A DNA stretch of 64,000 nucleotides from Lachnospiraceae bacterium (GTDB taxonomy: Bacteria; Bacillota; Clostridia; Lachnospirales; Lachnospiraceae): assembly GCA_017453065.1 (NCBI GenBank), contig JAFTKW010000004.1, forward strand, positions 1-64,000. Reading direction: 5' to 3'. The position numbers were made by a program, and so were the translations under genes. Of this stretch, positions 28-12,596 are shown piece by piece (position 1 is the stretch's first letter; every line of letters begins with the position of its first letter). The notes under the pieces were generated by a model that saw nothing but the letters and a program-made list of their open reading frames with translations, made no database searches and was not told the DNA's origin.

Positions 28-159
28 TTGAAGGATTATATTGAAGAGAGAGCCATAGGCATCGGTGTTTACATCATTGAAAACAACGCTACCGTCAGAC
101 AGACAGCGAAGGCATTTGGGGTATCCAAGAGTACCGTACATGTGGAAGTAACAATATAG
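28..159 (+). pseudogene. spoIIID: 5' part of split spoIIID (sporulation regulator)
   Basis: SpoIIID is a small DNA-binding regulator that acts in the mother cell during sporulation. The frame starts at TTG 28 behind the ribosome binding site GAGGGGA (14-20). It reads like the SpoIIID N-terminus: MKDYIEERAIGIG, then ENNATVRQTAKAFGVSKSTVH, which is the helix-turn-helix. After the His codon at 139-141 the family pattern (KDVTxRL) is lost, and element-derived codons run to TAG at 157-159. The missing C-terminal half lies in the same orientation at 12462-12596. As it stands the product would be a 43-residue fragment. The gene may be rebuilt by excision of the intervening element, so 'pseudogene' describes only the present layout. 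Confidence 0.9.
137..141. other. Left attachment site core of spoIIID element (attL, TACAT)
   Basis: The left junction reads ACCGTACATGTGGAAGTAAC and the right junction (12453-12472) reads ACCATACATAAAGACGTAAC. TACAT is the longest string shared exactly at the point where spoIIID coding sense stops on the left and resumes on the right. A short core is typical of large serine recombinases. The exact crossover dinucleotide cannot be read from one sequence; ACC just upstream is also shared. Confidence 0.7.
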
Positions 160-210
160 AGCGGTGGAAAAGCAAATTGATTTGGTCAATTGAATAGGCT
201 GAAATTAAGA

Positions 211-250
211 GCACTCTCAGGTAGAAACTTGGGGGTGTTTTTGGTATAGT
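211..250 (+). promoter_or_regulatory. Promoter repeat copy A, upstream of araC-type gene
   Basis: This is the first of three related promoters. It has a -35-like TAGAAA (222-227), a 17-bp spacer and -10 TATAGT (245-250). The preceding GCACTCTCAGGT is identical to copy B at 1258. The repeat continues past the -10 as AGGAT. It is the likely promoter for the gene at 342. The hairpin that is perfect in copy B is degraded here. The stretch 160-341 holds nothing else recognisable. Confidence 0.6.
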
Positions 251-341
251 AGGATGTAGGTATAGTTAAAAATTATCCCAAGAACTATCAAAAAATCTTC
301 TTCATAATTGTGTATCATTATTATTGGAAGGAGCGTATGTG

Positions 342-1229
342 ATGCGTAATATTGAAGTGGTGCAACGGATGATTGATTGGATTGAAGAAAATATGGAAGA
401 GGGACCGACTTTGCAAAAGGTTTCCAATGCGGTAGGTTACTCGCCATGGTACTGTTCCTGCATGTTTCATGATATTACTGGAATGACTATGAAATCTTAT
501 GTGGCGGGAAGAAGACTTGCAATGGCTACTGAGAAAATCAGAGATACAGAGGAACGGATTCTAGATATAGCTTTCCAATATGGTTTTTCTTCACAGGAAG
601 CTCTGACGAGAGTATTCAAAGAACAGTACGGGTGCACACCGGCTGTATACAGAAGAGAAAATAGACCTGTACCAATGACAATACACAAGCATGTGCTTTT
701 TCCGGAATATGATGAAAAGAGGATAAAGACAATGGAAGAAACAAGATTAGCGGTTCGTGTAGAACACATTCCTGCACATAAGTATTTAGGAATTTGGGAA
801 GAAAAGGCTTCAAATTATTGTGATTTTTGGAACTATCATGACTGTGATGAAGTGTGTGGATTTGTAACGAGCATGGACAAGATGGCGCATCCGATTGTTA
901 CGGCGCATACTGCCGGATGGAAAATGAAAGGTGATAAAAAGGTTTATTTCTATGGAACAGGAGTGCCTACGGACTATGAGGGAGCAATACCCAAAGGATT
1001 TGAAATAAGAGAAGTTCCCGTAAGTGATTACCTTGTGTTTTCCTACCCAGTTTTTGACTTTATGTCAGAAAATGCGGATGTGATGGGTGCAGTAGAGAAA
1101 TTGGCATTTTCTTTTAATCCGGCAGAGATGGGATATGAGTGGAACGATGAGGAATGTCAGATTTATCAGAGGCACTATCCTGAAAAGTTGGGTTATCAGG
1201 TAGTGAGACCTGTGAAAAAAATGAAATAA
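342..1229 (+). CDS. AraC-family regulator with GyrI-like effector domain
   Basis: A transcription factor with a two-helix AraC DNA-binding domain at the N-terminus (about residues 5-105) and a GyrI/AraE-type ligand-binding domain in the C-terminal part (about 130-290). The first helix-turn-helix includes TLQKVSNAVGYSPWYCSCMF. The second contains ILDIAFQYGFSSQEALTRVF, followed by the typical GCTPAVYRR. The start ATG 342 follows GGAAGGAG (326-333) with 8-bp spacing. Such proteins usually sense small molecules and control resistance or transport genes. Here the gene is alone between promoter copies A and B, so its target is unknown. It is the first cargo gene of the spoIIID element. Confidence 0.88.
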   Translation: MRNIEVVQRMIDWIEENMEEGPTLQKVSNAVGYSPWYCSCMFHDITGMTMKSYVAGRRLAMATEKIRDTEERILDIAFQYGFSSQEALTRVFKEQYGCTPAVYRRENRPVPMTIHKHVLFPEYDEKRIKTMEETRLAVRVEHIPAHKYLGIWEEKASNYCDFWNYHDCDEVCGFVTSMDKMAHPIVTAHTAGWKMKGDKKVYFYGTGVPTDYEGAIPKGFEIREVPVSDYLVFSYPVFDFMSENADVMGAVEKLAFSFNPAEMGYEWNDEECQIYQRHYPEKLGYQVVRPVKKMK

Positions 1230-1257
1230 GATACAACTGAATAAGACAAGACCAGGA

Positions 1258-1297
1258 GCACTCTCAGGTGGAAATCTGAGAGTGCTTTTGGTATAAT
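1258..1297 (+). promoter_or_regulatory. Fused terminator and promoter (repeat copy B)
   Basis: A perfect 10-bp stem, GCACTCTCAG (1258-1267) and CTGAGAGTGC (1276-1285), is followed by TTTT: a terminator for the araC-type gene. The 8-nt loop contains TGGAAA (1269-1274), which lies 17 bp from -10 TATAAT (1292-1297), so the same 40 bp also looks like the promoter for the operon starting at 1346. Copies A (211) and C (4641) keep the -35-like box, the 17-bp spacing and the -10 but not the perfect stem. Confidence 0.7.
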
Positions 1298-1345
1298 GGG
1301 ATACATGAATAATCTGTTAGGATGATAGAGATGGAAGGTGACGTG

Positions 1346-1813
1346 TTGAGAGTTTTATATACGGGATTTAAAGGGAAAAATAATTCATCTTATCAGTTGC
1401 TAGCCAAGATTTCTGGGCAGAAATTGTTTCTGGCCAATTCATTTGATGGCTTGAAGAAGGATATTATGAATGTTGTAGAAGAATATGATTTGGTTGTAAT
1501 GTTTGGCTTAGATACAAGACTAAAAGACGCAGTTAGAATTGAAAAGGTTGCAGAATGGGAGAATGAGAAGATAATTACACAGTTAGACTGTGATGAGATA
1601 CATACAAATATGGTGTCATGCGGCATCTGTTGCGCTGTATCAAATATACCAACAAGGTATTTGTGTAATGCTGCATACTTTCATATGTTGCAGAAGTTCT
1701 CTGGGAAAGTAGTGTTTATTCATATTCCACCACTGAAGAATATGTCGGAAAGTATGGTGTGTAAAATTTTGGAAAGCTTAGAGAAGATAGAAAGGAACTG
1801 TAAATATGTTTGA
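1346..1813 (+). CDS. Pyroglutamyl-peptidase I-like (C15 family) protein
   Basis: About 155 residues, resembling Pcp, the cysteine peptidase that removes N-terminal pyroglutamate. It opens with RVLYTGFKGKNNSSYQLL, like the Pcp start VLVTGFxPFxxxNPS. The three catalytic positions can be matched: Glu in RIEKVAE, Cys in RYLCNAAYF and His in VFIHIPPL. It is shorter than typical Pcp (about 200-215 residues), so it is divergent and its substrate may differ. I chose TTG 1346, with GGAAGGTG at 1333-1340, because the family begins right there; ATG 1322 or 1331 would add residues outside the family. It overlaps the next gene by 8 bp, so the two are probably translated together. Confidence 0.7.
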   Translation: MRVLYTGFKGKNNSSYQLLAKISGQKLFLANSFDGLKKDIMNVVEEYDLVVMFGLDTRLKDAVRIEKVAEWENEKIITQLDCDEIHTNMVSCGICCAVSNIPTRYLCNAAYFHMLQKFSGKVVFIHIPPLKNMSESMVCKILESLEKIERNCKYV

Positions 1814-2102
1814 AGAAATAACATTTCCTGAACATGAGTATGAGTCAATTCAAAATTATTTAAATAAACTAGGGTATTGTTATACCACGAGAGTATATAA
1901 AGAAATTGGAAAATACAGAGTTGGAGAATTATATATTGCCCCATGGGGTGATGTGTTGAGAATAGATGAAGTTAAAAAATATTGGAAAGTATCGGATCGT
2001 CCGTTCTATGACGAAATGAATGATGACGAAAAGATAGAAATTCGTAAATATTCTGAGGATATAGGATTGCCATATGAATTTATAAAATTTTCTAAAGTAT
2101 AG
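1806..2102 (+). CDS. ASCH/PUA-like small protein
   Basis: A 98-residue protein with the look of an ASCH (PUA-like) RNA- or nucleotide-binding fold. A basic YTTRVYKEIGKYRVGELY is followed by APWGDVLRIDEVKKY, then RPFYDEM and a C-terminal EIRKYSEDIGLPYEFIKF. The pattern of a strand pair, conserved Gly-Asp/Glu and a late helix is ASCH-like. The assignment rests on motif feel, not on any search. It overlaps the Pcp-like gene by 8 bp. No catalytic residues can be assigned with confidence. Confidence 0.5.
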   Translation: MFEEITFPEHEYESIQNYLNKLGYCYTTRVYKEIGKYRVGELYIAPWGDVLRIDEVKKYWKVSDRPFYDEMNDDEKIEIRKYSEDIGLPYEFIKFSKV

Positions 2103-2149
2103 TATGATTACATTTCGACAGCGATTAATTTTAATTTGGAGTGATGATT

Positions 2150-2677
2150 ATGAAGTTAGTGTTTCCTAGTTTGCGTTATAAAGAAAAAGCAGTACAGTTT
2201 ATAAATGAATTTTACCAATATGATTCTGAGATTAACGGGAGTGGAGGATTAGACAGATATTTGAAAGAATCTACTTACGAAGAATGGTTAAAGAAAGTTC
2301 TTACTGATATCGATATTGCAAATGTTCTGCAATCAAGAGTTCCAGCCTTAACCTATTTTTACATTCGTGAAGAAGATGATAAAATACTTGGAATGATAAA
2401 TATTAGATTAGCAGGAAATGAGTTCATCAAAAGAGAAGGTGGTCATATAGGATATTGTATAAGACCGACCGAAAGGCGGAAACATTATGCAACAGATATG
2501 TTGAATGATGCTTTAAAGGTTTTTGATACACTATGCATCAAAGAAGTTATTTTAACATGTTACAAATCCAATATAGCATCTGCAGGTGTTATTAAGAATT
2601 GCAACGGAGAACTGGTTGAAGAGTTTTATAGCGGCACTTATAAGAAAGAAATACAAAAATATATAATCAGAAGATAG
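2150..2677 (+). CDS. GNAT family N-acetyltransferase
   Basis: About 175 residues. The C-terminal half has the GNAT core: KILGMINIRLAGNEF (strand pair), GHIGYCIRPTERRKHYATDM (acetyl-CoA loop, an R-K-x-x-A variant of Q/RxxGxG/A) and CYKSNIASAGVIKNCNGEL, where the small-molecule acetyltransferases carry N-xx-S. The substrate is unknown. ATG 2150 is favoured because GGAGTG lies 7 bp upstream; ATG 2144 is possible. It lies in the promoter-B operon, 47 bp after the ASCH-like gene. Confidence 0.85.
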   Translation: MKLVFPSLRYKEKAVQFINEFYQYDSEINGSGGLDRYLKESTYEEWLKKVLTDIDIANVLQSRVPALTYFYIREEDDKILGMINIRLAGNEFIKREGGHIGYCIRPTERRKHYATDMLNDALKVFDTLCIKEVILTCYKSNIASAGVIKNCNGELVEEFYSGTYKKEIQKYIIRR

Positions 2678-2745
2678 ATAAATTCAAATATGTAGGCATA
2701 GAGAATTTGAATTTGTCAAAACAACTATCATTAGGGAGAATGGAT

Positions 2746-3420
2746 ATGCAGCAATTGATTAAGAAAGAAAATGTAAGAATTAAGATTATAGGAGATAGTA
2801 TTGCTGCAGGTGGAGGAAGTACGCAGAGTTATAAAACAGACCAACTGATTTTTGAAGATACGAAAAAATTTTTTGGGCGAGTTGCTCCCAATAGTTGGTG
2901 GGGGTTGTTGGAAGCTTATTTACATACGATTAATTCTACGTTGACTATAGTAAATAATGGCTGCGGTGGAGCATATTCATATCAGATTAAAGAACATCTG
3001 GAAACGTTGATTTCACAAGAGGATGATATTGTGTTTGTTTTGCTGGGGTTAAATGACAGAAAACGATCAAACGGACTTAAGGAACTTAGAGAGAATCTTG
3101 AAAATATAATTGAAAGGTTAATTGCATGGGAAAAGAAAATAGTAATACTTACTCCTAATCCGTCAATATATTGCAATGAGTATTATGAAAATAGAATCTA
3201 TCACACAGATCAGATTGTAGAAATATTAAAAGATGTGGCGATGAATAAGGGAGTTTTATTGATAGACAATTATCGATTTATTCTGGATTATTTGGCTGCG
3301 CGCGAGCAGAAAATCGATGACATAATATTCAATGCTGATGGTGGAGGGGATGGATTGCATCCTGGTGATTTTGTTCAGAAATTAATGTTTGAAAATATTA
3401 TTTCTGAATTAGATATCTAA
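2746..3420 (+). CDS. SGNH/GDSL-type esterase or lipase
   Basis: About 225 residues with the SGNH hydrolase blocks. Block I is IIGDSIAAGGG with the catalytic Ser. Block II is in NNGCGGAYS. Block III is LLGLNDR with the Asn. Block V is DGLHPGD with the catalytic Asp and His near the C-terminus. No signal peptide, so it is probably cytoplasmic. These enzymes cleave esters of varied substrates, for example acetyl groups on sugars. The start at ATG 2746 sits 6 bp after AGGGAGA; an upstream TTG at 2707 has no clear binding site. Confidence 0.85.
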   Translation: MQQLIKKENVRIKIIGDSIAAGGGSTQSYKTDQLIFEDTKKFFGRVAPNSWWGLLEAYLHTINSTLTIVNNGCGGAYSYQIKEHLETLISQEDDIVFVLLGLNDRKRSNGLKELRENLENIIERLIAWEKKIVILTPNPSIYCNEYYENRIYHTDQIVEILKDVAMNKGVLLIDNYRFILDYLAAREQKIDDIIFNADGGGDGLHPGDFVQKLMFENIISELDI

Positions 3421-3454
3421 AAAAGCAAACTTGATTATGGTGGAGATGTGCGTA

Positions 3455-3907
3455 ATGGGAATAGTCTACAAGAAGCTTACTGAGGCAGAATTAGATACTT
3501 TTATTAATATGAGAATACAACAACTTCGTGAAGAAGGAGCAACGGAAGAAATTGATTTAACCCTCAATCTCAAAGATTATTACAATAGACACATGGCTGA
3601 AGGTACTTTTGTGTCTTGGCTTGCATTGGATGGGAATAAAATTATAGGAACTAGTGGAATGTCTTTTGTGGAAAGACCACCTATATTTGGATGCCCCAGT
3701 GGTAAGATGGGAATATTGTCTAGCATGTATACTAATCCTAGTTACAGGCGACAAGGTATTGCTAAAGAATTGCTTACCCGCGTAGTGAATGAAGCAAAAG
3801 AATATGGTTGTGGCACAGTGCAAATAACAGCATCAGACATGGGGGTTAAATTGTATTCTGCGTTTGGTTTTCAGCATAATGAAAATTATATGTATTACAA
3901 ATTGTAG
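3455..3907 (+). CDS. GNAT family N-acetyltransferase
   Basis: About 150 residues. A standard GNAT order is seen: WLALDGNKIIGTSGMSF, GKMGILSSMYTNPSYRRQGI (strand 4 into the RRQGIA acetyl-CoA loop) and MGVKLYSAFGFQHNENYM at the end. The closest feel is to single-domain enzymes that acetylate small amines or protein N-termini; no substrate can be named. ATG 3455 is chosen since TGGAG (3440-3444) sits about 10 bp upstream. It directly follows the SGNH gene in the same operon. Confidence 0.87.
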   Translation: MGIVYKKLTEAELDTFINMRIQQLREEGATEEIDLTLNLKDYYNRHMAEGTFVSWLALDGNKIIGTSGMSFVERPPIFGCPSGKMGILSSMYTNPSYRRQGIAKELLTRVVNEAKEYGCGTVQITASDMGVKLYSAFGFQHNENYMYYKL

Positions 3908-3943
3908 AGAACACAAATTTTGAAACTGATATGAGGGAACATA

Positions 3944-4351
3944 ATGGTGATTGCGATATCAATTCAAATAACACTTTGGATATGGTTTTGGGGCTGTACT
4001 ACGACATATCGTGCTGGAAAGTACTTGTTAGTAGAAGGGATGGGGATTAAAAGCGCGGAGTTTGTAATGCTTTGTCTATATAGTATCGGACTTGTTTCTT
4101 ACCATTTCTTTCAACCGGTTGGGAAATGGATTTTATTAGTCATATTGTTACTTTGGTTTATCGTGCAGTTTCTCTGCCACTGGTACTATACAATTTTTGG
4201 GGCAAGTGACAAGAAGATAAAAGGATATAACGAATGTTTTAGAGATACAATTCGTATCTTCCCCATGAGCGAAAAGCGACTTGTGCCAGATTTGTATCAT
4301 ATCATTCTTCACATCCTGATTTTGGCAAACATTGTCTGTTGCCTCATATAA
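3944..4351 (+). CDS. Small integral membrane protein, unknown function
   Basis: A 135-residue protein with four likely membrane segments: residues about 3-18, 38-53, 59-83 and 118-135. The last two are separated by a charged cytoplasmic loop (ASDKKIKGYNECFRDTIRIF). No family was recognised. The ribosome binding site GAGGGAAC lies before ATG 3944. It is the last gene before the terminator at 4487 and probably belongs to the promoter-B operon. Confidence 0.6.
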   Translation: MVIAISIQITLWIWFWGCTTTYRAGKYLLVEGMGIKSAEFVMLCLYSIGLVSYHFFQPVGKWILLVILLLWFIVQFLCHWYYTIFGASDKKIKGYNECFRDTIRIFPMSEKRLVPDLYHIILHILILANIVCCLI

Positions 4352-4486
4352 AGAAAACAAATCCCAATTTGTAGTGAATAGAATCTTTAAGTATATAAGA
4401 AAGAATGTCTCAGTGTAAAAAGAGTTAGTATAGTATTACATATGTTTACAGTAGGCACTGATGTGCTAGGCTGTTGCAAGAACGAT

Positions 4487-4528
4487 AGGCTCTGGTTTCT
4501 ATTAAAAGGTAGGAATCAGAGCCTTTCT
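4487..4528 (+). terminator. Rho-independent terminator of the promoter-B operon
   Basis: Arms AGGCTCTGGTTTCT (4487-4500) and AGGAATCAGAGCCT (4511-4524) pair with two mismatch or wobble positions and are followed by a short T-rich run. A second inverted repeat, CTGATGTGC near 4459 and GCACATCAG near 4543, encloses this hairpin, so the RNA could fold into a longer structure. The small reading frame across 4442-4627 lies on this structure and is not counted as a gene. Confidence 0.65.
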
Positions 4529-4640
4529 TATTTGCCGATCGGCACATCAGCGGGTTCATACTGTCAACATATGAGAAGAGGTTTGTTTTCGATAAAGTGT
4601 TTTCGCTGTTGGATTGGAGATAAGTAGGGGCCTTCTTAGG

Positions 4641-4669
4641 TGGAAATAGGATAAACTTTTTGATATAAT
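4641..4669 (+). promoter_or_regulatory. Promoter repeat copy C, upstream of FRG gene
   Basis: TGGAAA (4641-4646), 17 bp, TATAAT (4664-4669), then GGGATAC as in copy B. The shared AGGTGGAAAT and TATAATGGGATAC blocks tie it to copies A and B. The hairpin arms are not kept here, which suggests the promoter part is what is selected. Confidence 0.65.
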
Positions 4670-4712
4670 GGGATACAATATATGGGATTAGTACAAATGA
4701 TGGGGGTGTGGG

Positions 4713-6038
4713 ATGTTTTTCTTTTTCTTTGATGAAAACTTAAGTGATAATGTTATAGTGCAAGAAGCATTTCATAAGCAATGTTTTAAAAAAATATTGG
4801 AGACGGGATATTGTGATATGAATCTCTTTTTCGGTAAACCTAAAATAAAGAGAGAAACGATAGCTTATGAATTGGAAACAAGAAAATCTTCTCTGGCAAG
4901 TCTATTTAAAAACAACTATCCGCGAAGTATAGATGAAGCAACAAAAAAGTTGGGAGAAGTATTGGAGAAACTAGTTTGGGAAGAAGAGGGAATAGACAGC
5001 TATGTAGAATTTGCCATTGTGTATTATATTTATAAATCGCTACCTACGAATGAAAAAAAAGAAGATTTTACACGAGGCATTCTACAAGCATGGCGAGAGC
5101 AGGAGAGAGAAAGCAGTAACATAGAAATATATGATATGGATTTGCGTATATCAAATGGTATAGTTTTTGATAACAACACCATTGAATTGCATATAGTCAA
5201 TACGATAAATCAATATATTGCGTTATTAGATAAAATTGGCGAAAGTAAGGACAAGCTGTTCTTTAGAGGACATAGTAATGTATCATATCAGTTGATTCCG
5301 TCAGTGTTTAGAAAAAAGGAATGGATAGAGAATGAGAAACTAATGTATCAAGAACTATTGATTAATTGTGCGAATGACTTTAATCAAATAGAAGGTCATC
5401 TTGCGACTTTGGCTGAAATGCAGCACTATGGTTTGCCAACAAGATTGCTAGATGTTACCCAAAATCCTCTTGTAGCATTGTACTTCGCTTGTGAAGGAGC
5501 GGATAATAATTCGGGTGAAGTTATTGCCTTTAGGGTGTGCAGGGAAGATATTAAATATCCGCAAAGTGATACAGTGACTATTCTTGCTTCTTTGCCGCTG
5601 TTTACATACGAAGAGCAAAAGGATTTTTATGAAAAATCTATAAGCTATTATGGGAAAGTGGAAGATTTTAATAAGGATATCGAGAGATTAGTTCATGAAG
5701 TTAGAATGGAGAGACCTGGATTTGTAGGAAAAATACAGCAAGAGGACTTAAGAAAGTGTATAGTGGTGATTCCATCCAAAAATAATAGAAGATTAGAAAA
5801 ACAGGAAGGAGCATTTATTGTCTGCGGACTTTTAGAAGAACATTATGGGAATAAAAAGAAAAATACGATAGATGAAATGAGAGTTCGTAGTAAAGAAGGA
5901 AAGAAATTGGTTTGTATAATTAATGGAAAGGATAAATTACTGAGACAATTGAACTCACTTGGAATTAATAAGAGTAAGGTTTATCCGGAAATAGACGATG
6001 TTGCAGATTATATAAAAAATAATATTAATGATCTATAA
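4713..6038 (+). CDS. FRG-domain protein
   Basis: A 441-residue protein. The FRG domain begins near residue 185 with LFFRGHSNVSYQLIPSVFRK, the family's signature Phe-Arg-Gly, and continues with AEMQHYGLPTRLLDVTQNP and ALYFACEG. FRG domains are found in bacterial proteins that often sit on mobile elements and are suspected toxins or defence factors; the biochemical role is not settled. Residues 1-180 are helical and unrecognised. It is a single-gene unit between promoter copy C and the terminator at 6062. A defence role is inferred from its neighbours. Confidence 0.8.
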   Translation: MFFFFFDENLSDNVIVQEAFHKQCFKKILETGYCDMNLFFGKPKIKRETIAYELETRKSSLASLFKNNYPRSIDEATKKLGEVLEKLVWEEEGIDSYVEFAIVYYIYKSLPTNEKKEDFTRGILQAWREQERESSNIEIYDMDLRISNGIVFDNNTIELHIVNTINQYIALLDKIGESKDKLFFRGHSNVSYQLIPSVFRKKEWIENEKLMYQELLINCANDFNQIEGHLATLAEMQHYGLPTRLLDVTQNPLVALYFACEGADNNSGEVIAFRVCREDIKYPQSDTVTILASLPLFTYEEQKDFYEKSISYYGKVEDFNKDIERLVHEVRMERPGFVGKIQQEDLRKCIVVIPSKNNRRLEKQEGAFIVCGLLEEHYGNKKKNTIDEMRVRSKEGKKLVCIINGKDKLLRQLNSLGINKSKVYPEIDDVADYIKNNINDL

Positions 6039-6061
6039 AAGGGAGATATAATAACATGTAT

Positions 6062-6103
6062 ACCGATGGGACCATATAAATGTGTTCTCATCGGTTTTTT
6101 TCT
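6062..6103 (+). terminator. Rho-independent terminator after FRG gene
   Basis: The arm ACCGATG (6062-6068) pairs with CATCGGT (6089-6095), with a few further base pairs inside, followed by a run of seven T. Confidence 0.7.
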
Positions 6104-6216
6104 AGTTATGATTGGGTGTTAGGGGAACCCTAAAGTGAATGCCCTAGACATTCAGCAGTCTCGTGCGTAAAGTTCATGCAACTTTATGCGTATCCTGCTT
6201 TGCTTTTGTTTCATAC

Positions 6217-6297
6217 AGTCTCATTTTGTGAGAATAGTCTCGTTTTGTGGAAAACCTTATATTTACTGGGTTTGTAGCGGTTTCACAATTTGAGACT
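6217..6297. repeat. Three copies of a 14-bp repeat (AGTCTCNNNTTGTG)
   Basis: AGTCTCATTTTGTG (6217-6230) and AGTCTCGTTTTGTG (6236-6249) are direct repeats 19 bp apart. CACAATTTGAGACT (6284-6297) is the same word inverted. They sit in the 460-bp gap between the FRG gene and the small gene at 6499. This looks like a binding site cluster for a regulator or an accessory recombination protein; which one is unknown. The rest of 6104-6498 shows no gene. Confidence 0.6.
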
Positions 6298-6498
6298 GGC
6301 TAGTTGAGAGTTTTTGCGAGTTCAAAAAGAGAGACTAATTTTTTCTCTAAATGTAGACACAAATTTTTGCACTTTTTTAGCAATCAGCTTTTTTTGACCC
6401 TAAGTACTAAATGTGAGGAAAACAACAGGTATAACCTGAGAATCAATCTCATAGTATTGGAAAGAAGGACAAGCAAAACAGGGAGGTGGAGATTCCGT

Positions 6499-6723
6499 TT
6501 GAAGCAAAGGAAATTGAATTATCGCTTTCATAATCCGAATTCGGCGGAGGATACCGCTGAATTCTTGTGTAAGCTTTTGATTGAAGCAAACACATGTAAG
6601 GTTGAACGAGCGATTGAAGAGGCTGCATTAAAGTGTGCAGAGGAAAGTGAGTACATAGCAGAGTCGGGGAAACTGGAAATGGTGGAAGAACCGGTGAGAA
6701 TAAGACGGAGAAGAGCAAGGTAG
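6499..6723 (+). CDS. Small basic protein typical of clostridial mobile elements
   Basis: A 74-residue protein beginning MKQRKLNYRFHNPNSAEDTAE and ending in a run of Arg. I recall similar short proteins (LNYRFHNPN, then a helix with KVERAI) next to recombinases in clostridial elements, but know no function. TTG 6499 is chosen because GGGAGGTGG (6481-6489) sits 9 bp upstream and the family starts there; a longer frame from 6304 has no binding site. Being small and basic, it could be a recombination directionality factor, but this is a guess. Confidence 0.55.
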   Translation: MKQRKLNYRFHNPNSAEDTAEFLCKLLIEANTCKVERAIEEAALKCAEESEYIAESGKLEMVEEPVRIRRRRAR

Positions 6724-6739
6724 AGATGCCTTGCTTTTT
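6714..6739 (+). terminator. Terminator overlapping end of small basic protein gene
   Basis: AGCAAGG (6714-6720) and CCTTGCT (6729-6735) form a 7-bp stem around an 8-nt loop that contains the stop codon, followed by T. Confidence 0.65.
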
Positions 6740-6783
6740 CTGTAATCATAAGGAACGTGAAGAACAACTTAAATTGCAGAGAG

Positions 6784-6839
6784 AAATTTGAGTTGTTTTT
6801 TGAGTTTTTAATAAGAAAGTGAAGAAACTCAAATTTTTT
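6784..6839 (+). terminator. Second hairpin with T-run before the AbiL pair
   Basis: AAATTTGAGTT (6784-6794) and AACTCAAATTT (6826-6836) are perfectly complementary over 11 bp and are followed by T. The large loop contains a further copy of TTTGAGTTTT. It could be a terminator or a binding site array for a factor recognising TTTGAG, which recurs at 6862-6900 and 6948-6962. The rest of the gap to 7020 has no gene. Confidence 0.4.
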
Positions 6840-7020
6840 AAGTTAAAATTTTAGTTCCTATTTGAGTTTTGTTTTTCTTTTGAGATGCTTATGGGTATGC
6901 GAAGTACTTGTAAAATTGTTGAAAATATAATTACGGGGCGAAATATGAGATAAAATCTCAAATATCCGTTGCAAAATGAGAAAAGTAGGATATAATAAAG
7001 ATAGAATGGAGGTAAAAGAT

Positions 7021-8247
7021 ATGTTATGTCAATTTACTGTTAAAAATTACAAAAGTATAAGAGATGAAGTAACTTTTGATATGCAGGCGGCTGCAATTTC
7101 AGAACATAAAGATAGAATAATCAAAGATGTGGATGGTGAATTGTATTTGCCGGTATCTGCTATTTATGGTCCTAACGGCGGAGGTAAGTCTAATGTATTA
7201 GAAGCAATTAATACACTGGTAGCTAAAATTTTACGCCCTATTTATGCGACAGCGGATACAGAAGGGCATGCATTTTTGCAGAAAAGGATAATTGTTGAAC
7301 CATTTGTTTTTTTAGAAGAGTACAGAGAGAGTCCGACGGAATTTGAACTATTCTTCCGTACAGATTCTGCAGAGTACAGATATATTCTGCATGTGAAACG
7401 TGACGTTGTTATTTATGAAAGTTTAGATAGGGTTAAACTTGAAACAGGAAGACGCTCTGCATTATTTACAAGAGATGAGAAAGGTGTTGATTTGAAGGGA
7501 GCATTTGCTAGATTAAAAGTAAGTGACGATTTATCAAAAACACTTGCATTGCTTTCCTACTTGGGTATCGCCTATAAAGAAAATGCAGTAGTTAAAGATG
7601 TATTGAATTGGTTTGAATTCGGTATAGATTTCTTGAATTACGGTAATCCAATGCAGGAACTTAGAATGGCTATTTCTTCATCTGAAGAGGTGAAGCATTT
7701 GATGCTTGATATGATTCAGGAAATGGATCTGGATATCGTTGATTTCAGAGTTGAAGAAAAAGAGAACGATATGATTGAAGTGTTCACAAAGCATCGTGTG
7801 AATGATGTGGAGACAGAACTTGAGTTGGCAGATGAGTCTAGTGGAACAAAGAAGTTATTTGGTCTGCTTCCTTTTATTGCAGCAAGTTTGCTTACAGGAA
7901 CTACCCTTGTGATTGATGAGTTAGACGCAAAGATTCATCCGGTATTGTTGCGTCATATCATAATGATGTTCAATGATATGGAAATCAATAGCCACAAAGC
8001 TCAGTTGATATTTACATCACATGATTTGTCTACAATGAACAACGATGTATTCCGCAGGGACGAAATCTGGTTTGTTGCAAAAGGAAAGGCACAAAATTCA
8101 CAGTTATATTCATTGGTAGAGTTTAAGGATGCTAAAGGTGGTTCTGTCAGAAACGATGAAAAATATGACAAGAGATATCTTGAAGGCAGATATGGTGCTG
8201 ATCCATACCTCAAAACAATTATAGATTGGGGGAAAGTTAATGCCTAA
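7021..8247 (+). CDS. AAA ATPase, AbiLi/RloA-like defence ATPase
   Basis: A 408-residue SMC/OLD-like ATPase. Walker A is GPNGGGKSN (residues 50-58). The Walker B region is TLVIDELDAKIHP (about 297-309), followed by AQLIFTSHDLSTMNN, the D-loop/His switch of the AAA_21 family. The start ATG 7021 follows ATGGAGGT at 8 bp. It overlaps the next gene, an RloB-like protein, by 8 bp. This ATPase plus RloB pair is the layout of the AbiL abortive-infection system, in which the ATPase is thought to sense infection and the RloB partner acts on nucleic acid. The defence role follows from the family and pairing. Confidence 0.82.
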   Translation: MLCQFTVKNYKSIRDEVTFDMQAAAISEHKDRIIKDVDGELYLPVSAIYGPNGGGKSNVLEAINTLVAKILRPIYATADTEGHAFLQKRIIVEPFVFLEEYRESPTEFELFFRTDSAEYRYILHVKRDVVIYESLDRVKLETGRRSALFTRDEKGVDLKGAFARLKVSDDLSKTLALLSYLGIAYKENAVVKDVLNWFEFGIDFLNYGNPMQELRMAISSSEEVKHLMLDMIQEMDLDIVDFRVEEKENDMIEVFTKHRVNDVETELELADESSGTKKLFGLLPFIAASLLTGTTLVIDELDAKIHPVLLRHIIMMFNDMEINSHKAQLIFTSHDLSTMNNDVFRRDEIWFVAKGKAQNSQLYSLVEFKDAKGGSVRNDEKYDKRYLEGRYGADPYLKTIIDWGKVNA

Positions 8248-8941
8248 AAAAGCCGGAATGGAGAAGTGGAAGAAGAAGCGTCGCCAAGAGCATATGGAGC
8301 AGAAGCTATATAGGTATTATATCTTTTGCGAAGGCCAACAGACGGAGCCATTATACTTTGCGGGATTTAAGAAGCTGATTGAGGAAAATCCTGTTTACAA
8401 GGATATGGTGCTGATTGAGATAGAACCTTGCCAGGCAGAAACTATGCGTGTGATTGGTATGGCAGAGAATTATGTGAAGAAGAACAAAATCAAGAAGGGG
8501 CAAATCTGGTGTGTCTATGATAAAGATAGTTTTCCACCAGAACGCTTCAATGGTGTCGTAGAGCGTGCGGAGAGTCTGAATAAAGCAAATCCAGAATTAC
8601 AATATCATACGGCATGGAGTAATGAATGCATTGAGTTTTGGTTTTTACTTCACTTTGCATACTATACTGCGAATAATCACAGGGCGGAGTATATCACATT
8701 CTTAAATGACAAGTTCAAGGAGCTTGGAATTGGAAAATATCAAAAGAATATGCAGGATATCTTTAAGATTCTTTTAGAGCATGGCAATCCAAAACTTGCG
8801 ATTCGCTATGCGAAGCGAATTATTAAAGATGGAGAAGGTAAAACCCCGACAGAAATTGCACCGGGAACTAAGGTGTATGAGTTAGTGGAGGAACTGGCGA
8901 AATATTTGCCAGAGGAAGTACAAGAACGATTCATTAATTAG
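8240..8941 (+). CDS. RloB-like TOPRIM protein (AbiLii-type)
   Basis: A 233-residue RloB-family protein. A basic N-terminus is followed by YRYYIFCEGQQTEPLYFAGF, in which CEGxxTEPxYF is the RloB signature. VWCVYDKDSFPPERFN then carries the acidic DxD of a TOPRIM-like fold, and SNECIEFWFLLHF the third conserved acidic position. RloB is the presumed nuclease partner of the upstream ATPase. Translation is coupled through the 8-bp overlap. An aberrant feature was not seen; all recognisable acidic residues are kept. Confidence 0.85.
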   Translation: MPKKAGMEKWKKKRRQEHMEQKLYRYYIFCEGQQTEPLYFAGFKKLIEENPVYKDMVLIEIEPCQAETMRVIGMAENYVKKNKIKKGQIWCVYDKDSFPPERFNGVVERAESLNKANPELQYHTAWSNECIEFWFLLHFAYYTANNHRAEYITFLNDKFKELGIGKYQKNMQDIFKILLEHGNPKLAIRYAKRIIKDGEGKTPTEIAPGTKVYELVEELAKYLPEEVQERFIN

Positions 8942-9038
8942 TATGGAAGGGTTAAGGTGGATGTTGATACAATTATTCCACGGTCAAAGAATGTATTAGA
9001 AAAATTACTGTAAAGGAAACATCAAGGAGGTAGATATA

Positions 9039-9716
9039 ATGGATATCACAAAAAGAAAAAGAAGTAAAATAATTATAGATATGATCCAAGGCAATATTGA
9101 TGTTGCTCAAGCACTAGAGATTTTAGATTTATTATTAGAAGATCTAAACGATGAAAGCATCAAAAAATGGGTTAAAAATGAGATTAATGGATATAGTGAA
9201 GATGAATCTGTTCCTAAATATAGAAAAGCTAATGCAGAAATTATAGGCACCGTAAAAACATATACTGCAGTAATAAGTCGATACAATATACCAATTCCTT
9301 TAGAAGATGCAAAAGAATTGTGTGTTATTGATATTAGAGACGGACTTAACGAAATTGTTCAAATGGCAACTGCGGAAAAAGAAACTGATTCTCACGCATT
9401 ATCGATACCACTAAATATTGCTTATATAAATTCTATTGCTTGCATAAATGGTGAAGTAACACATGCTCATAGACAATTGAGTATGTATACATACAATAAT
9501 ATTTTGGGAAGCTTAAAATCTAAAATTCTATCTATTTTTAAAGAACTTGAAAAGAGTTATGGAAATTTGGATGAATACTATATAGACTTTCAAAATGATA
9601 TAAAAGAACAAGAAACCACTAAAAATATAACAAATATAATTTTTGATAATTCAATTAAAATTGGAGACAAAAACAAATTTGATGACAGTATAATAGGAAA
9701 TAACAATAATGAATAA
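9039..9716 (+). CDS. AbiTii-domain protein with GNNN-repeat tail
   Basis: A 225-residue protein. Residues 1-90 match the AbiTii abortive-infection domain: a helical start, then KKWVKNEINGYSEDESVPKYR and AEIIGTV. The tail (about 195-225) has KNITNIIFDNSIKIGDKNKF followed by DDSIIGNNNNE, a short repeat that looks like a turn-rich beta-solenoid. The next gene starts inside this stop codon and encodes the same IGNNN word. A binding site AAGGAGG precedes the ATG. AbiTii proteins take part in phage-induced abortive infection; the mechanism is not known to me. Confidence 0.75.
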   Translation: MDITKRKRSKIIIDMIQGNIDVAQALEILDLLLEDLNDESIKKWVKNEINGYSEDESVPKYRKANAEIIGTVKTYTAVISRYNIPIPLEDAKELCVIDIRDGLNEIVQMATAEKETDSHALSIPLNIAYINSIACINGEVTHAHRQLSMYTYNNILGSLKSKILSIFKELEKSYGNLDEYYIDFQNDIKEQETTKNITNIIFDNSIKIGDKNKFDDSIIGNNNNE

Positions 9717-9867
9717 AATAGGAAACAATAATAAAATTAAGAATTCTATTATCGGAAACAATAATAATGTCTCAGAGAAAAAAGATAATCATTTAATTAC
9801 TATAATTATTACAATTACAACAGGTATAATTATTGGTGGAGTATTATATTTTTTAGGTTGGAATTAA
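9709..9867 (+). CDS. 52-residue membrane protein, probable AbiTii partner
   Basis: This short gene starts at ATG 9709, overlapping the AbiTii stop by 8 bp, and ends at TAA 9865-9867. Residues 1-22 read MNKIGNNNKIKNSIIGNNNN, repeating the motif at the end of the AbiTii protein (IGDKNKFDDSIIGNNNN). After a charged linker (VSEKKDNH) comes one hydrophobic helix of about 22 residues, starting LITIIITITTGIIIGG, and a short tail ending in GWN. The layout suggests a single-pass membrane protein whose cytoplasmic tip docks onto AbiTii. It has no known family that I recognise. Confidence 0.7.
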   Translation: MNKIGNNNKIKNSIIGNNNNVSEKKDNHLITIIITITTGIIIGGVLYFLGWN

Positions 9868-9978
9868 ATATAATTTTATGGCGTAAATCTAATGGACAAA
9901 AGCAATTTCAAATAATTACAAGAAGTATGCCATAGGTAATGATTTGTATTATATAATAAACTAAAGGGATGATAAAAT

Positions 9979-10716
9979 ATGGAAAAGTATTTAGAGATAT
10001 TATCAAATTTAATAACAGCAGATAATGTGGCGCTTTTATCAGTTGTTATTACGGTTCTTATTTTTATTTTTACTAGGCGTTTAGAAATCAGACATAAAAA
10101 GCATGATGATAAGAAGATACAGTACTTGAAACTTATTGAACTTATGGAAAAGAATTTTTCAAGTACTCGTAAAAATAAAAAGGGAGAAGTTGTTTTAACA
10201 GACGATTTAAAGAAACTATTTTTTGACACAGGAGCTTCATTATTAATGTATGGATCAAGAAAGGTCTATCGTTTATACATACTATTTAGAGAGTTTACGA
10301 GTAATCCATTGATTAAGCAATGCAAATATTATGACGAGAGGATTGCATTGCATATTATGTCAGAAATATTAGTCACTATGAGAAAAGAGGTTGGATTGAG
10401 TTATTTTAGCAGTGTAACTAATAATGAGGCGTTGGCTTTTTTTGTAAATGATATCTCTTGTAATCCTAATGCAAAGAAAGAGGCAATTAGAGCCAAGTTT
10501 TGTATAAGGATGATAAAATTTGAACTGTGGATGATGGATAGAACACAATTTGTGTGGATGAATAAAATATATTTAGGTTTTATAAAGCCAATTCTAGCGA
10601 TAGTGGGAATAGCTATTAAGTATATAGTTATGATTCCTTTGGGGAGAATTATAGCGAAAATCTTTCCAAAGTTTGCTGAAGATATAATGAAAGAGACGAA
10701 GAAATCAAAGGATTAA
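9979..10716 (+). CDS. Membrane-anchored protein of unknown function
   Basis: A 245-residue protein with one N-terminal membrane segment (about residues 18-33, VALLSVVITVLIFIF) and a hydrophobic stretch near 195-225 (IKPILAIVGIAIKYIVMIP). Between them is a helical, charged soluble region. No family was recognised. Its place beside AbiTii and AbiL genes suggests a defence role, but the sequence alone gives no mechanism. AAGGGATGAT precedes ATG 9979. Confidence 0.55.
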   Translation: MEKYLEILSNLITADNVALLSVVITVLIFIFTRRLEIRHKKHDDKKIQYLKLIELMEKNFSSTRKNKKGEVVLTDDLKKLFFDTGASLLMYGSRKVYRLYILFREFTSNPLIKQCKYYDERIALHIMSEILVTMRKEVGLSYFSSVTNNEALAFFVNDISCNPNAKKEAIRAKFCIRMIKFELWMMDRTQFVWMNKIYLGFIKPILAIVGIAIKYIVMIPLGRIIAKIFPKFAEDIMKETKKSKD

Positions 10717-10776
10717 TATTTTGAGAACTATTAAATAATTGTGTGGGTTAAAATTTAAAAATAAATCTTCAAGAAG

Positions 10777-10801
10777 GCAAGAGGAAAACTCTTGCTTTTT
10801 T
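10777..10801 (+). terminator. Terminator before the recombinase gene
   Basis: GCAAGAG, GAAAA loop and CTCTTGC (10777-10795) are followed by six T. It insulates the recombinase from the cargo genes, so the recombinase must have its own promoter within 10802-10867. No clear sigma-A or sigma-E boxes could be fixed there. Confidence 0.75.
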
Positions 10802-10867
10802 CTATTTCTTACAATAAAATAATAGTCGTAACAGAACGCTACAACTCTAACAGAAAGGTGGTTAAAC

Positions 10868-12463
10868 ATGAACATAGCAGCATACTGCCGAGTTTCCACA
10901 GATAAAGAAGACCAGCTCAACAGTTTAGAGACTCAGAAAGAGTTTTTCTTAGAATATACAAAACGTACAGGGGACAACCTTATCAAATTATATGCAGACG
11001 AAGGTATTTCCGGAACCAAAATCAAGAATCGTAAAGAATTCCAACGTATGCTTGCAGATGCGGAAAAAGGATTATTCGATATGGTGGTAGTAAAGGACAT
11101 TTCTCGCTTTGCTAGAAACACGGTGGACTTATTACAGAGTGTCCGTAAGCTGAAATCGCTTGGTATCGAAACACAGTTCCTTACCGCAAACATGACTAGC
11201 ATGGGTAACTCTGAATTTGTATTAACCATCTTTGGTGCATTGGCTCAGGAAGAAAGTGCCAACACTTCTAAACGTATCAAATTCGGCAAGAAGATGAATG
11301 CAGAAAAAGGTCGAGTTCCTAATATTGTCTACGGATATGATAAGACTATTGGTGACTATTTCAATCTATCCATTAATGAAGAGGAAGCAATGGTTATCCG
11401 CCAGATGTTCACTTGGTATACCGAAGAAGGTTACGGTGGGGCTAAGATTGCCAATATGCTCAATGAACGTGGAGTAAAAACCAAACGAGGAAATAATTGG
11501 AGTCAGAATTCCGTATGCCGTATTCTGACTAACGAGATATACACTGGAAAGATTATTAATGGTAAAGAGGAAGTGTCGGACTTCCTTACCGGTCAGAGAA
11601 AAGAAAAAGATGAGTCGGAATGGTTAGTAACCCTTCGTCCAGAGCTTCGTATTATCGATGATGAAACCTTTGACAGGGCGCAGGAGATTTTAAAAGGTCG
11701 TCACGATTCCTTTAAGCTGACTCATGAGCGTCAAAGCAACAAGTATTTATTCTCTACATTGATTAAGTGTAAGGATTGTGGTTGGTCCTTCCGTAGAAGT
11801 GTCCGACAATATAAGAATACCTATGTACGTTGGGTATGCTCCGGTCACAATGGTCGTGGTGCGGATAGTTGTCCAAATGCGATTACAGTAGATGAAGAAG
11901 AATTGATTCAGGTATTGCAGGAGTACTTCCAGGATGTACTTAGTAAGAAGAAAAAAGTAATCGACCATGTGATTAAAGAGTTTCAACGTGTCTACAAAGC
12001 GAAGGATGAAAATGTAGAATACGAAAAAGAATTAACAGCAGAGTTAAACAGGCTTCGTAGATCACGTGAGAAATATATGGATATGTACACCGATGATTTG
12101 ATTTCCAGAGAGGAATTGAATGAGAAAATCGGTGGAATGAGAAAAGAGATTGATAGATTGGAAAATGAACTAAAGATGGTGTCTTACAATCTGACAAAGG
12201 GAGAGCAGTTGGAAGCGATTTTGAACAGCACCTTCAAAGCGATGGAAGATATTACCGATGTTCATGAAATGACCAATACACAGTTAAAGCGTCTTATCAA
12301 TAAAATTGAAGTGGACAAGGATGGTAACGTAGATATTTATCTACGTCTTATTGGTGACTTAGGATTAGACGAAGCCGTGCTTATCGAAGGCTCAGAAGAC
12401 AACGAAACCGACCAAGAAACATCCACAAACGAAACCGTTCCAAATCGTCACAACCATACATAA
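10868..12463 (+). CDS. Large serine recombinase
   Basis: A 531-residue site-specific recombinase. The resolvase domain starts IAAYCRVSTDKEDQLNS with the catalytic Ser, and includes VVVKDISRFARNT and EFVLTIFGALAQEES. The recombinase domain (about 160-260) holds GVKTKRGNNWSQNSVCRIL. A zinc ribbon follows: CKDCGWSF with CSGHNGRGADSC. A coiled coil near 380-450 and an acidic tail complete the Tn4451/TndX-like plan. The stop TAA uses T12461 of the attR core and two bases from spoIIID, so excision changes the C-terminus: in the circle the frame would continue for 18 codons to TAG at 195-197. It probably inserts and excises the 12.3-kb element. Confidence 0.92.
   Translation: MNIAAYCRVSTDKEDQLNSLETQKEFFLEYTKRTGDNLIKLYADEGISGTKIKNRKEFQRMLADAEKGLFDMVVVKDISRFARNTVDLLQSVRKLKSLGIETQFLTANMTSMGNSEFVLTIFGALAQEESANTSKRIKFGKKMNAEKGRVPNIVYGYDKTIGDYFNLSINEEEAMVIRQMFTWYTEEGYGGAKIANMLNERGVKTKRGNNWSQNSVCRILTNEIYTGKIINGKEEVSDFLTGQRKEKDESEWLVTLRPELRIIDDETFDRAQEILKGRHDSFKLTHERQSNKYLFSTLIKCKDCGWSFRRSVRQYKNTYVRWVCSGHNGRGADSCPNAITVDEEELIQVLQEYFQDVLSKKKKVIDHVIKEFQRVYKAKDENVEYEKELTAELNRLRRSREKYMDMYTDDLISREELNEKIGGMRKEIDRLENELKMVSYNLTKGEQLEAILNSTFKAMEDITDVHEMTNTQLKRLINKIEVDKDGNVDIYLRLIGDLGLDEAVLIEGSEDNETDQETSTNETVPNRHNHT
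12457..12461. other. Right attachment site core of spoIIID element (attR, TACAT)
   Basis: TACAT at 12457-12461 matches attL 137-141. To its left is recombinase coding sequence; immediately to its right (12462) spoIIID sense resumes with AAAGACGTAACCGAC, encoding KDVTD. Confidence 0.7.
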
Positions 12464-12596
12464 AGACGTAACCGACAGACTTGCGCAGTTAAATCCATCT
12501 CTGGCATCTGCAGCGAGACAAGTGCTAGATGTAAATAAATCTGAGAGACACATTAGAGGTGGCATGGCTACCAAGGAGAAGTACTTAGGAAAATAA
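12462..12596 (+). pseudogene. spoIIID: 3' part of split spoIIID
   Basis: This 44-codon segment plus stop encodes KDVTDRLAQLNPSLASAARQ, then VLDVNKSERHIRGGMATKEK and YLGK, the C-terminal half of clostridial SpoIIID including the basic region with RHIRGG and the end KEKYLGK. It has no start codon or ribosome binding site of its own and is in the recombinase's other frame. Joined to 28-141 at TACAT it gives an 82-residue protein of normal length. No frame damage is seen on either side, which argues for recent insertion or for regular repair by excision. Confidence 0.9.

Follow-up and report, generated by a model that had tools for sequence, protein, structure and literature searches.

The sporulation gene spoIIID of a gut Lachnospiraceae bacterium (assembly GCA_017453065.1, contig JAFTKW010000004.1) is split by a 12.3 kb element whose last gene is a large serine recombinase. 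The element lies in the first 64,000 nucleotides of the contig, the whole stretch analysed here and referred to as the window. The split gene, its attachment (att) sites, the insertion of related elements at the same point throughout a family, an associated small open reading frame (ORF) and a conserved promoter architecture are all evident in the sequences. We consider it very probable that this is a site-specific mobile element at His38 of spoIIID, which would be excised in the mother cell so that spoIIID is rejoined.

Structure of the split spoIIID locus

An initial annotation made from the letters of the window proposed that two halves of spoIIID stand 12.3 kb apart on one strand, join in frame and enclose an element that ends with the recombinase. 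The coordinates and the joined translation agree with this. The gene is interrupted after codon 38, the halves (hereafter the N half and the C half) are 12,320 bp apart, and together they encode 82 aa in frame. The features at the two ends are as follows.

28..141 (+): spoIIID 5' half, 38 codons with a TTG start; TIGR02844 match 1-41
137..167 (+): attL, with core TACAT at 137-141 and the left attP arm; the arm is conserved over 38 pairs and forms an inverted repeat with the right arm
10868..12463 (+): large serine recombinase, 531 aa; Pfam, and PHROG 95 (integrase)
12431..12461 (+): attR, with the right attP arm and core TACAT at 12457-12461; att comparison over 38 pairs
12462..12596 (+): spoIIID 3' half, 44 codons and stop; TIGR02844 match 34-79

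A second intact spoIIID in the same genome had been named as a finding that would count against the proposal. A TIGR02844 profile search of the genome gave nothing above the family cut-off and matched just the two halves and a fragment on contig C17. The assembly holds 2.73 Mb in 45 contigs and is 84.7% complete, and an intact spoIIID could lie in the missing portion. The C17 fragment, 24 codons at the contig end, is a 101-bp assembly overlap with the first bases of the window. By eye, this contig end carries a sigma-E-like spoIIID promoter region, and the contig holds methionyl-tRNA synthetase and other genes resembling the cargo of a relative (G030). The contig break at the start of the window is ruled out as a trace of excised molecules: the overlap lies upstream of the core.

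Because the window comes from a metagenome-type assembly and contig C39 begins at spoIIID, an assembly artefact or binning error that joined unrelated halves might be suspected. The same structure is present in the isolates Schaedlerella arabinosiphila DSM 106076 and Blautia sp. An81, and both halves stand on 30 single contigs, which makes such an error extremely improbable.

SpoIIID is upstream of sigK in the mother-cell cascade. Its role as a mother-cell factor is established in B. subtilis (PMC517825), and by analogy the target is taken to act in the mother cell here. The open literature gave no described element in spoIIID, in line with the initial annotation; preprints and most subscription papers lay outside this coverage. 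A 2023 paper lists sigK, spsM, spoVFB, gerE and also yabG as interrupted sporulation genes, and spoIIID is not in that list (PMC10747680).

Recombinase and attachment sites

The recombinase contains the Resolvase, Recombinase and Zn_ribbon_recom domains (Pfam) of a large serine integrase. In a structure search its nearest full-length solved relative was YokA of SPbeta (profile E 3.9e-11). Its stop codon overlaps the core and is completed by spoIIID sequence (window 12440-12463). In an excised circle the recombinase frame would continue into the left arm, giving a changed C-terminus.

The core had been read as the 5 bp TACAT. This sequence is common to both ends of the element in the window, but the comparison of 38 left/right pairs probably narrows the crossover to fewer bases. 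Within the contiguous core, the only positions at which left and right agree in every pair are the CA of the His38 codon. CA is thus most probably the crossover dinucleotide, and part of the longer identity in the window is chance. The two arms form an inverted repeat: when the right arm is reverse-complemented it agrees with the left arm at 15.6 of 26 positions, whereas shuffled arms agree at 8.8. Two characteristics of large serine integrases are present here, attP arms in inverted repeat and a central dinucleotide that is the same in attL and attR.

An intact attP stands behind a related recombinase in four of seven viral contigs (L144-L147; three are near copies). A degenerate attP pattern gave 0 matches against the viral contigs, though the protein search gave four with a variant attP. 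In one genome (L048, G055) a C-half contig starts exactly at TACAT and another contig stops inside the N half, close to the core. Such a pattern would be expected if the assembly branched there between the inserted form and other forms present together.

A family of elements at one codon

Relatives of the recombinase were collected in a scan of species-representative genomes, and the best 80 of 286 were kept. The C half starts flush at the recombinase end in 76 of the 80 kept loci, and all 76 C halves reach a stop. At one of the exceptions the contig ends within the C half (L129), and three have no visible C half (L092, L117, L139). The arrangement in the window is therefore not chance. The family spans Lachnospiraceae and Oscillospiraceae, and its carriers include isolates, among the names being Blautia, Schaedlerella, [Ruminococcus] torques, Mordavella, Pseudoflavonifractor and Angelakisella. 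On the 30 contigs with both halves the element measures 3.8-18.8 kb (median 12.3 kb), with one at 64 kb.

The initial annotation suggested that relatives be compared for an uninterrupted site. Among 99 genomes around the window (its own included) spoIIID is intact in 70, present in pieces only in 12 and without a match in 17. The best 8 of 13 recombinase matches in these genomes all stand directly before a C half, and they extend to 40% identity and to another family; the remaining five are at 32-40%. The recombinase is found in 8 of the 12 pieces-only genomes. Judged from these sequences, the element seems to be a member of a large, apparently undescribed family at the same spoIIID codon, in dozens of species and some phages. 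With 76 loci in species-representative genomes from the kept sample alone, it is not a one-strain curiosity.

A candidate excision factor and its promoter

Elements of differing cargo, phage contigs included, have one small ORF in common, with the consensus KKRKLNYRFHNPN. The 96 loci examined, which include a few places retrieved twice, contain it in 73 cases. In some loci it stands 113-170 bp before the recombinase, in others kilobases away with cargo between, and in the window the distance is 4.2 kb. Regulatory features in the window are listed here.

6429..6457 (+): sigma-E-like promoter of the candidate excision factor, GTATAAC -14- CATAGTAT; pattern in 41 of 44 distinct homologous upstream regions
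6467..6472 (+): GGACAA box, possible SpoIIID site; after TCATA in 26 of 44
6499..6723 (+): candidate recombination directionality factor, 74 aa, KLNYRFHNPN family
10792..10820 (+): sigma-A-like promoter of the recombinase, TTGCTT -17- TAAAAT, read by eye in a conserved upstream region
10828..10838 (+): conserved box GTAACAGAACG behind the recombinase -10; GTAACNGA in 57 of 70 distinct recombinase upstream regions

Among the 99 genomes the small ORF occurs in six. Five of these have the split gene and the recombinase, and the sixth (G006) retains a remnant of the element. A directionality factor working with this recombinase would be expected to be confined in this way. We propose ORF 6499-6723 as a candidate recombination directionality factor, the missing partner of the recombinase. 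Alternatively, it could be one more cargo gene accompanying the recombinase, in which case something else would drive excision. The ORF has no match in Pfam, PHROGs, NCBIfam or solved structures, is absent from 23 of the 96 loci (some cut by contig ends) and often has kilobases of cargo between it and the recombinase. However, it is the shared feature across differing cargo, it is confined to element genomes among the 99, and known directionality factors are likewise small and mutually dissimilar (PMC5025042). We therefore regard a passenger role as rather unlikely.

Of 44 distinct sequences upstream of the small ORF, 41 contain the pattern TAnn-14-CATA. Proper dinucleotide shuffles and random windows of the same loci served as controls and gave means of 0.76 (max 4) and 1.13 (max 4), respectively. 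Spacings other than 14 were found in 0 to 14 of the 44, and just 2 of 70 recombinase upstream regions carry the pattern. The spoIVA promoters of carriers have the 14-bp spacing too, the picking of these promoters having favoured it. The architecture may reflect control of the small ORF by sigma-E. GGACAA follows within 14 bases after TCATA in 26 of 44 small-ORF regions, against 0.04 in the control. The core of the B. subtilis SpoIIID site is GGACAAG.

By eye, the upstream region of the recombinase holds a conserved sigma-A-like promoter. Control of the recombinase by sigma-E was considered and is ruled out, as the region looks sigma-A-like and the sigma-E pattern is present in just the two of 70. 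The box GTAACNGA resembles both the C. difficile SpoIIID consensus, KRTAACARK (PMC5025042), and the attP arm, and could be either. Autoregulation and SpoIIID control are both candidates for the role of the box in the window.

Remnants, apparent repairs and arrays

An old N half stands beside an intact spoIIID in six genomes (G006, G036, G045, G048, G057 and G076), and the recombinase was found in 0 of these six. A stretch of about 180 bp, comprising promoter and N half, is duplicated at the far end in G057 and G006, which restores the full gene. Serial spoIIID arrays are present at L218 (G133), L219 (G134), L220 (G125) and L232 (G124). Their units consist of promoter and N half, repeated, with different cargo between, and are partly decayed; G133 has three in a row. 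In G053 (L238 2121-6284) spoIIID is intact and an AbiL pair lies directly upstream of it, with no recombinase seen in the stretch, an arrangement that looks like a repaired element scar. It looks as though elements have arrived again and again, excision has been lost and the gene has been repaired, which a requirement for SpoIIID would lead one to expect.

Sporulation genes in carriers

A search for spoIIID covered 48 of the 80 kept genomes. In 46 of the 48 carriers the gene is in pieces only (42 with both halves, 4 with the C half only). The other two are G143, which has an intact copy besides the C half, and G128 (Christensenella), in which nothing was found. In 48 pairs the C half is open in all 48 and the N half is open to the core in 44; of the other four N halves, 2 are cut by contig ends and 2 were missed by the search patterns. 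SpoIVA is above the cut-off in 46 of 49 carriers (own genome included), and as the G135 copy is in two pieces, 45 are full-length. The remaining carriers are G130, in which spoIVA is split and below the cut-off, and G128 and G142, which gave no match. A sigma-K search is little informative: it matched in 49 of 49, with only 8 above the strict cut-off, which the B. subtilis control fails too.

An ordinary integrative element or prophage could use the conserved spoIIID site and inactivate sporulation. Its carriers would drift to asporogeny, and excision would be rare, unregulated and for transfer. Temperate-phage-like contigs and a relaxase-bearing relative share the recombinase, the split halves show about twice the dN/dS (nonsynonymous to synonymous substitution rate ratio) of intact genes, the Christensenella G128 has the recombinase yet no spoIIID or spoIVA match, and G142 has no spoIVA match. 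On the other side stand the full-length spoIVA in 45 of 49 carriers, the C halves open in 76 of 76, the small ORF with a sigma-E-like promoter architecture and the lineages with an N-half remnant, which lack the recombinase and have an intact spoIIID again. Taken together, these make simple inactivation distinctly unlikely.

Several observations weigh against developmental excision. The dN/dS values are 0.157 and 0.177 for the split halves against 0.078 and 0.098 for intact genes (sequences used: 33 and 23 of 38; 28 and 23 of 30), and some relaxation of selection on the halves is possible. The use of dN/dS as proof of selection after insertion was dropped, the nearest neighbours being mostly different species. 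A literature search found no sporulation data for any carrier, and the available part of PMC11352710 holds nothing on Schaedlerella spores. Most carrier genomes are metagenome assemblies, and no excised molecule was seen in the assemblies. The loci that lack the small ORF belong here also. The sigma-E-like pattern was defined post hoc, from the alignment. An independent matrix built from spoIVA promoters placed 9 of 44 small-ORF regions above the 95% shuffle level (about 2 expected) and 1 of 70 recombinase regions; the low pass rate arises because the small-ORF -10 is CATAG-, not CATAC-. Finally, the C. difficile factor requires SpoIIID, the very product that is lacking here.

In two carriers that are also split in spoIIID, G130 (Pseudoflavonifractor sp. 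Marseille-P3106) and G135, spoIVA itself is in two pieces, at different points, and each 3' piece adjoins another large serine recombinase. The loci concerned are L227 331-792 and L228 2687-4621 with about 4489 onward in G130, where the pieces lie 252 kb apart on one contig, and L229 and L230 in G135. In G109 (L090) the sigK-like match is broken into 24-118 and 108-223, which lie on two contigs. G141 (L094) has a sigK-like match 23-114 and also two spoIIID C halves with no N half. From these matches, sigK may be interrupted as well in G109 and G141.

Proposed mechanism and relation to known elements

The initial annotation compared the element to the skin element of sigK. The comparison has gained from the common insertion codon across the family, the open halves, the lack of an intact copy in 46 of 48 carriers and in the window's own genome, the retention of spoIVA and the candidate excision factor with its sigma-E-like promoter architecture. 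From these we infer excision, its timing and cell type, the function of the factor and its sigma-E control. The recombinase would be made from its sigma-A-like promoter and by itself would integrate only. The small-ORF factor would be made under sigma-E alone, which is the simplest model because no step before the rejoining of spoIIID can depend on its product. Recombinase and factor would together recombine attL with attR, and the element would leave as a circle. With spoIIID rejoined in frame, sporulation would go on, and the element would stay in the forespore and be inherited. SpoIIID would later act, plausibly as a repressor, at the boxes near the start sites.

A tentative extension, which we hold possible but on balance doubtful, is a self-limiting switch. 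Sigma-E alone would start the factor, and SpoIIID from the rejoined gene would bind the GGACAA box at the start site of the factor and perhaps the GTAACAGAAC box at the recombinase promoter, shutting both genes off; the repaired gene would thereby end the period of excision and block re-integration. The module would be shared by temperate phages and defence islands, and throughout the family spoIIID would serve as a parking site for anti-phage genes, at no cost since the mother cell dies.

Several known elements resemble this one. The skin element of C. difficile likewise has a large serine recombinase and splits a mother-cell regulator gene in frame. Its recombinase is constitutive from a sigma-A promoter and its small directionality factor has a sigma-E promoter, needing both sigma-E and SpoIIID (PMC5025042); the corresponding sigma assignments here come from sequence. 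The target there is sigK and not spoIIID, and sigma-E alone must suffice here. The gin element in gerE of Bacillus cereus is a small non-phage element in a short gene for a mother-cell transcription factor and is excised in sporulation (PMC5595907), but it has another target and host group and is known from one strain, in contrast to a family with large cargo. SPbeta of Bacillus subtilis rejoins spsM with a phage-borne serine integrase, SprA, and a small factor, SprB (PMC4191935); spsM is a spore-polysaccharide gene and not a regulator, and the integrase is distant. Clostridium botulinum yin (yabG) and vfbin (spoVFB) are also intervening elements in sporulation genes, although in different ones (PMC10747680).

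If the proposal is true, programmed DNA excision would shift to an earlier step than sigK, into a gene whose product itself switches excision on in C. difficile (PMC5025042). Gene-content predictions would call many gut Lachnospiraceae spoIIID-negative though they are possibly spore-forming. Since several isolates are among the carriers, the claim is directly testable. The recombinase, the candidate factor and the 30-bp att sites could also be developed into a new set of orthogonal integrases.

Cargo and phage relatives

The remaining genes of the element in the window are cargo.

324..1229 (+): AraC-family regulator; Pfam HTH_18
2141..2677 (+): GNAT acetyltransferase; Pfam
2707..3420 (+): GDSL-type esterase; Pfam
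3431..3907 (+): second GNAT acetyltransferase; Pfam
4713..6038 (+): FRG-domain protein, candidate defence family PDC-S15; Pfam FRG, PADLOC
6976..8247 (+): AbiLi-type ATPase; PADLOC AbiLi 4.9e-87
8240..8941 (+): AbiLii / RloB-like; PADLOC, Pfam RloB
9039..9716 (+): AbiTii; Pfam, PADLOC
9979..10716 (+): protein without a match in the Pfam and PADLOC scans

The initial annotation named an AbiL-type pair, AbiTii and an FRG protein, and these names were recovered, AbiLi and AbiLii by PADLOC and AbiTii and FRG by Pfam. Its description of the element as a defence island holds in part. AbiL-type pairs recur in 7 of 12 complete elements (those short enough to fit within the fetched flank), but other elements carry quite different cargo. 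Elsewhere in the family a MmeI-type methyltransferase, KwaB-like and ParE-like proteins, a rolling-circle Rep and HepT with a nucleotidyltransferase were found. Defence is a recurrent cargo and not the defining feature of the element.

Pfam and PADLOC named no structural, packaging or lysis genes in 10 of the window's ORFs and further small ORFs, PHROGs having been applied to the recombinase and the small ORF only. Pfam named no relaxase or mobilization gene in the scanned ORFs of the window; by eye, the relative L035 has a MobA-like reading frame. Plasmids gave no recombinase match at 1e-80, and among phage records two unannotated fragments match the recombinase at 1e-60. The neighbouring genes on the viral contigs belong to phage DNA polymerase, ligase, ribonucleotide reductase and endolysin families. 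With such genes beside the recombinase and an intact attP on viral contigs, the recombination module also lives in phages.

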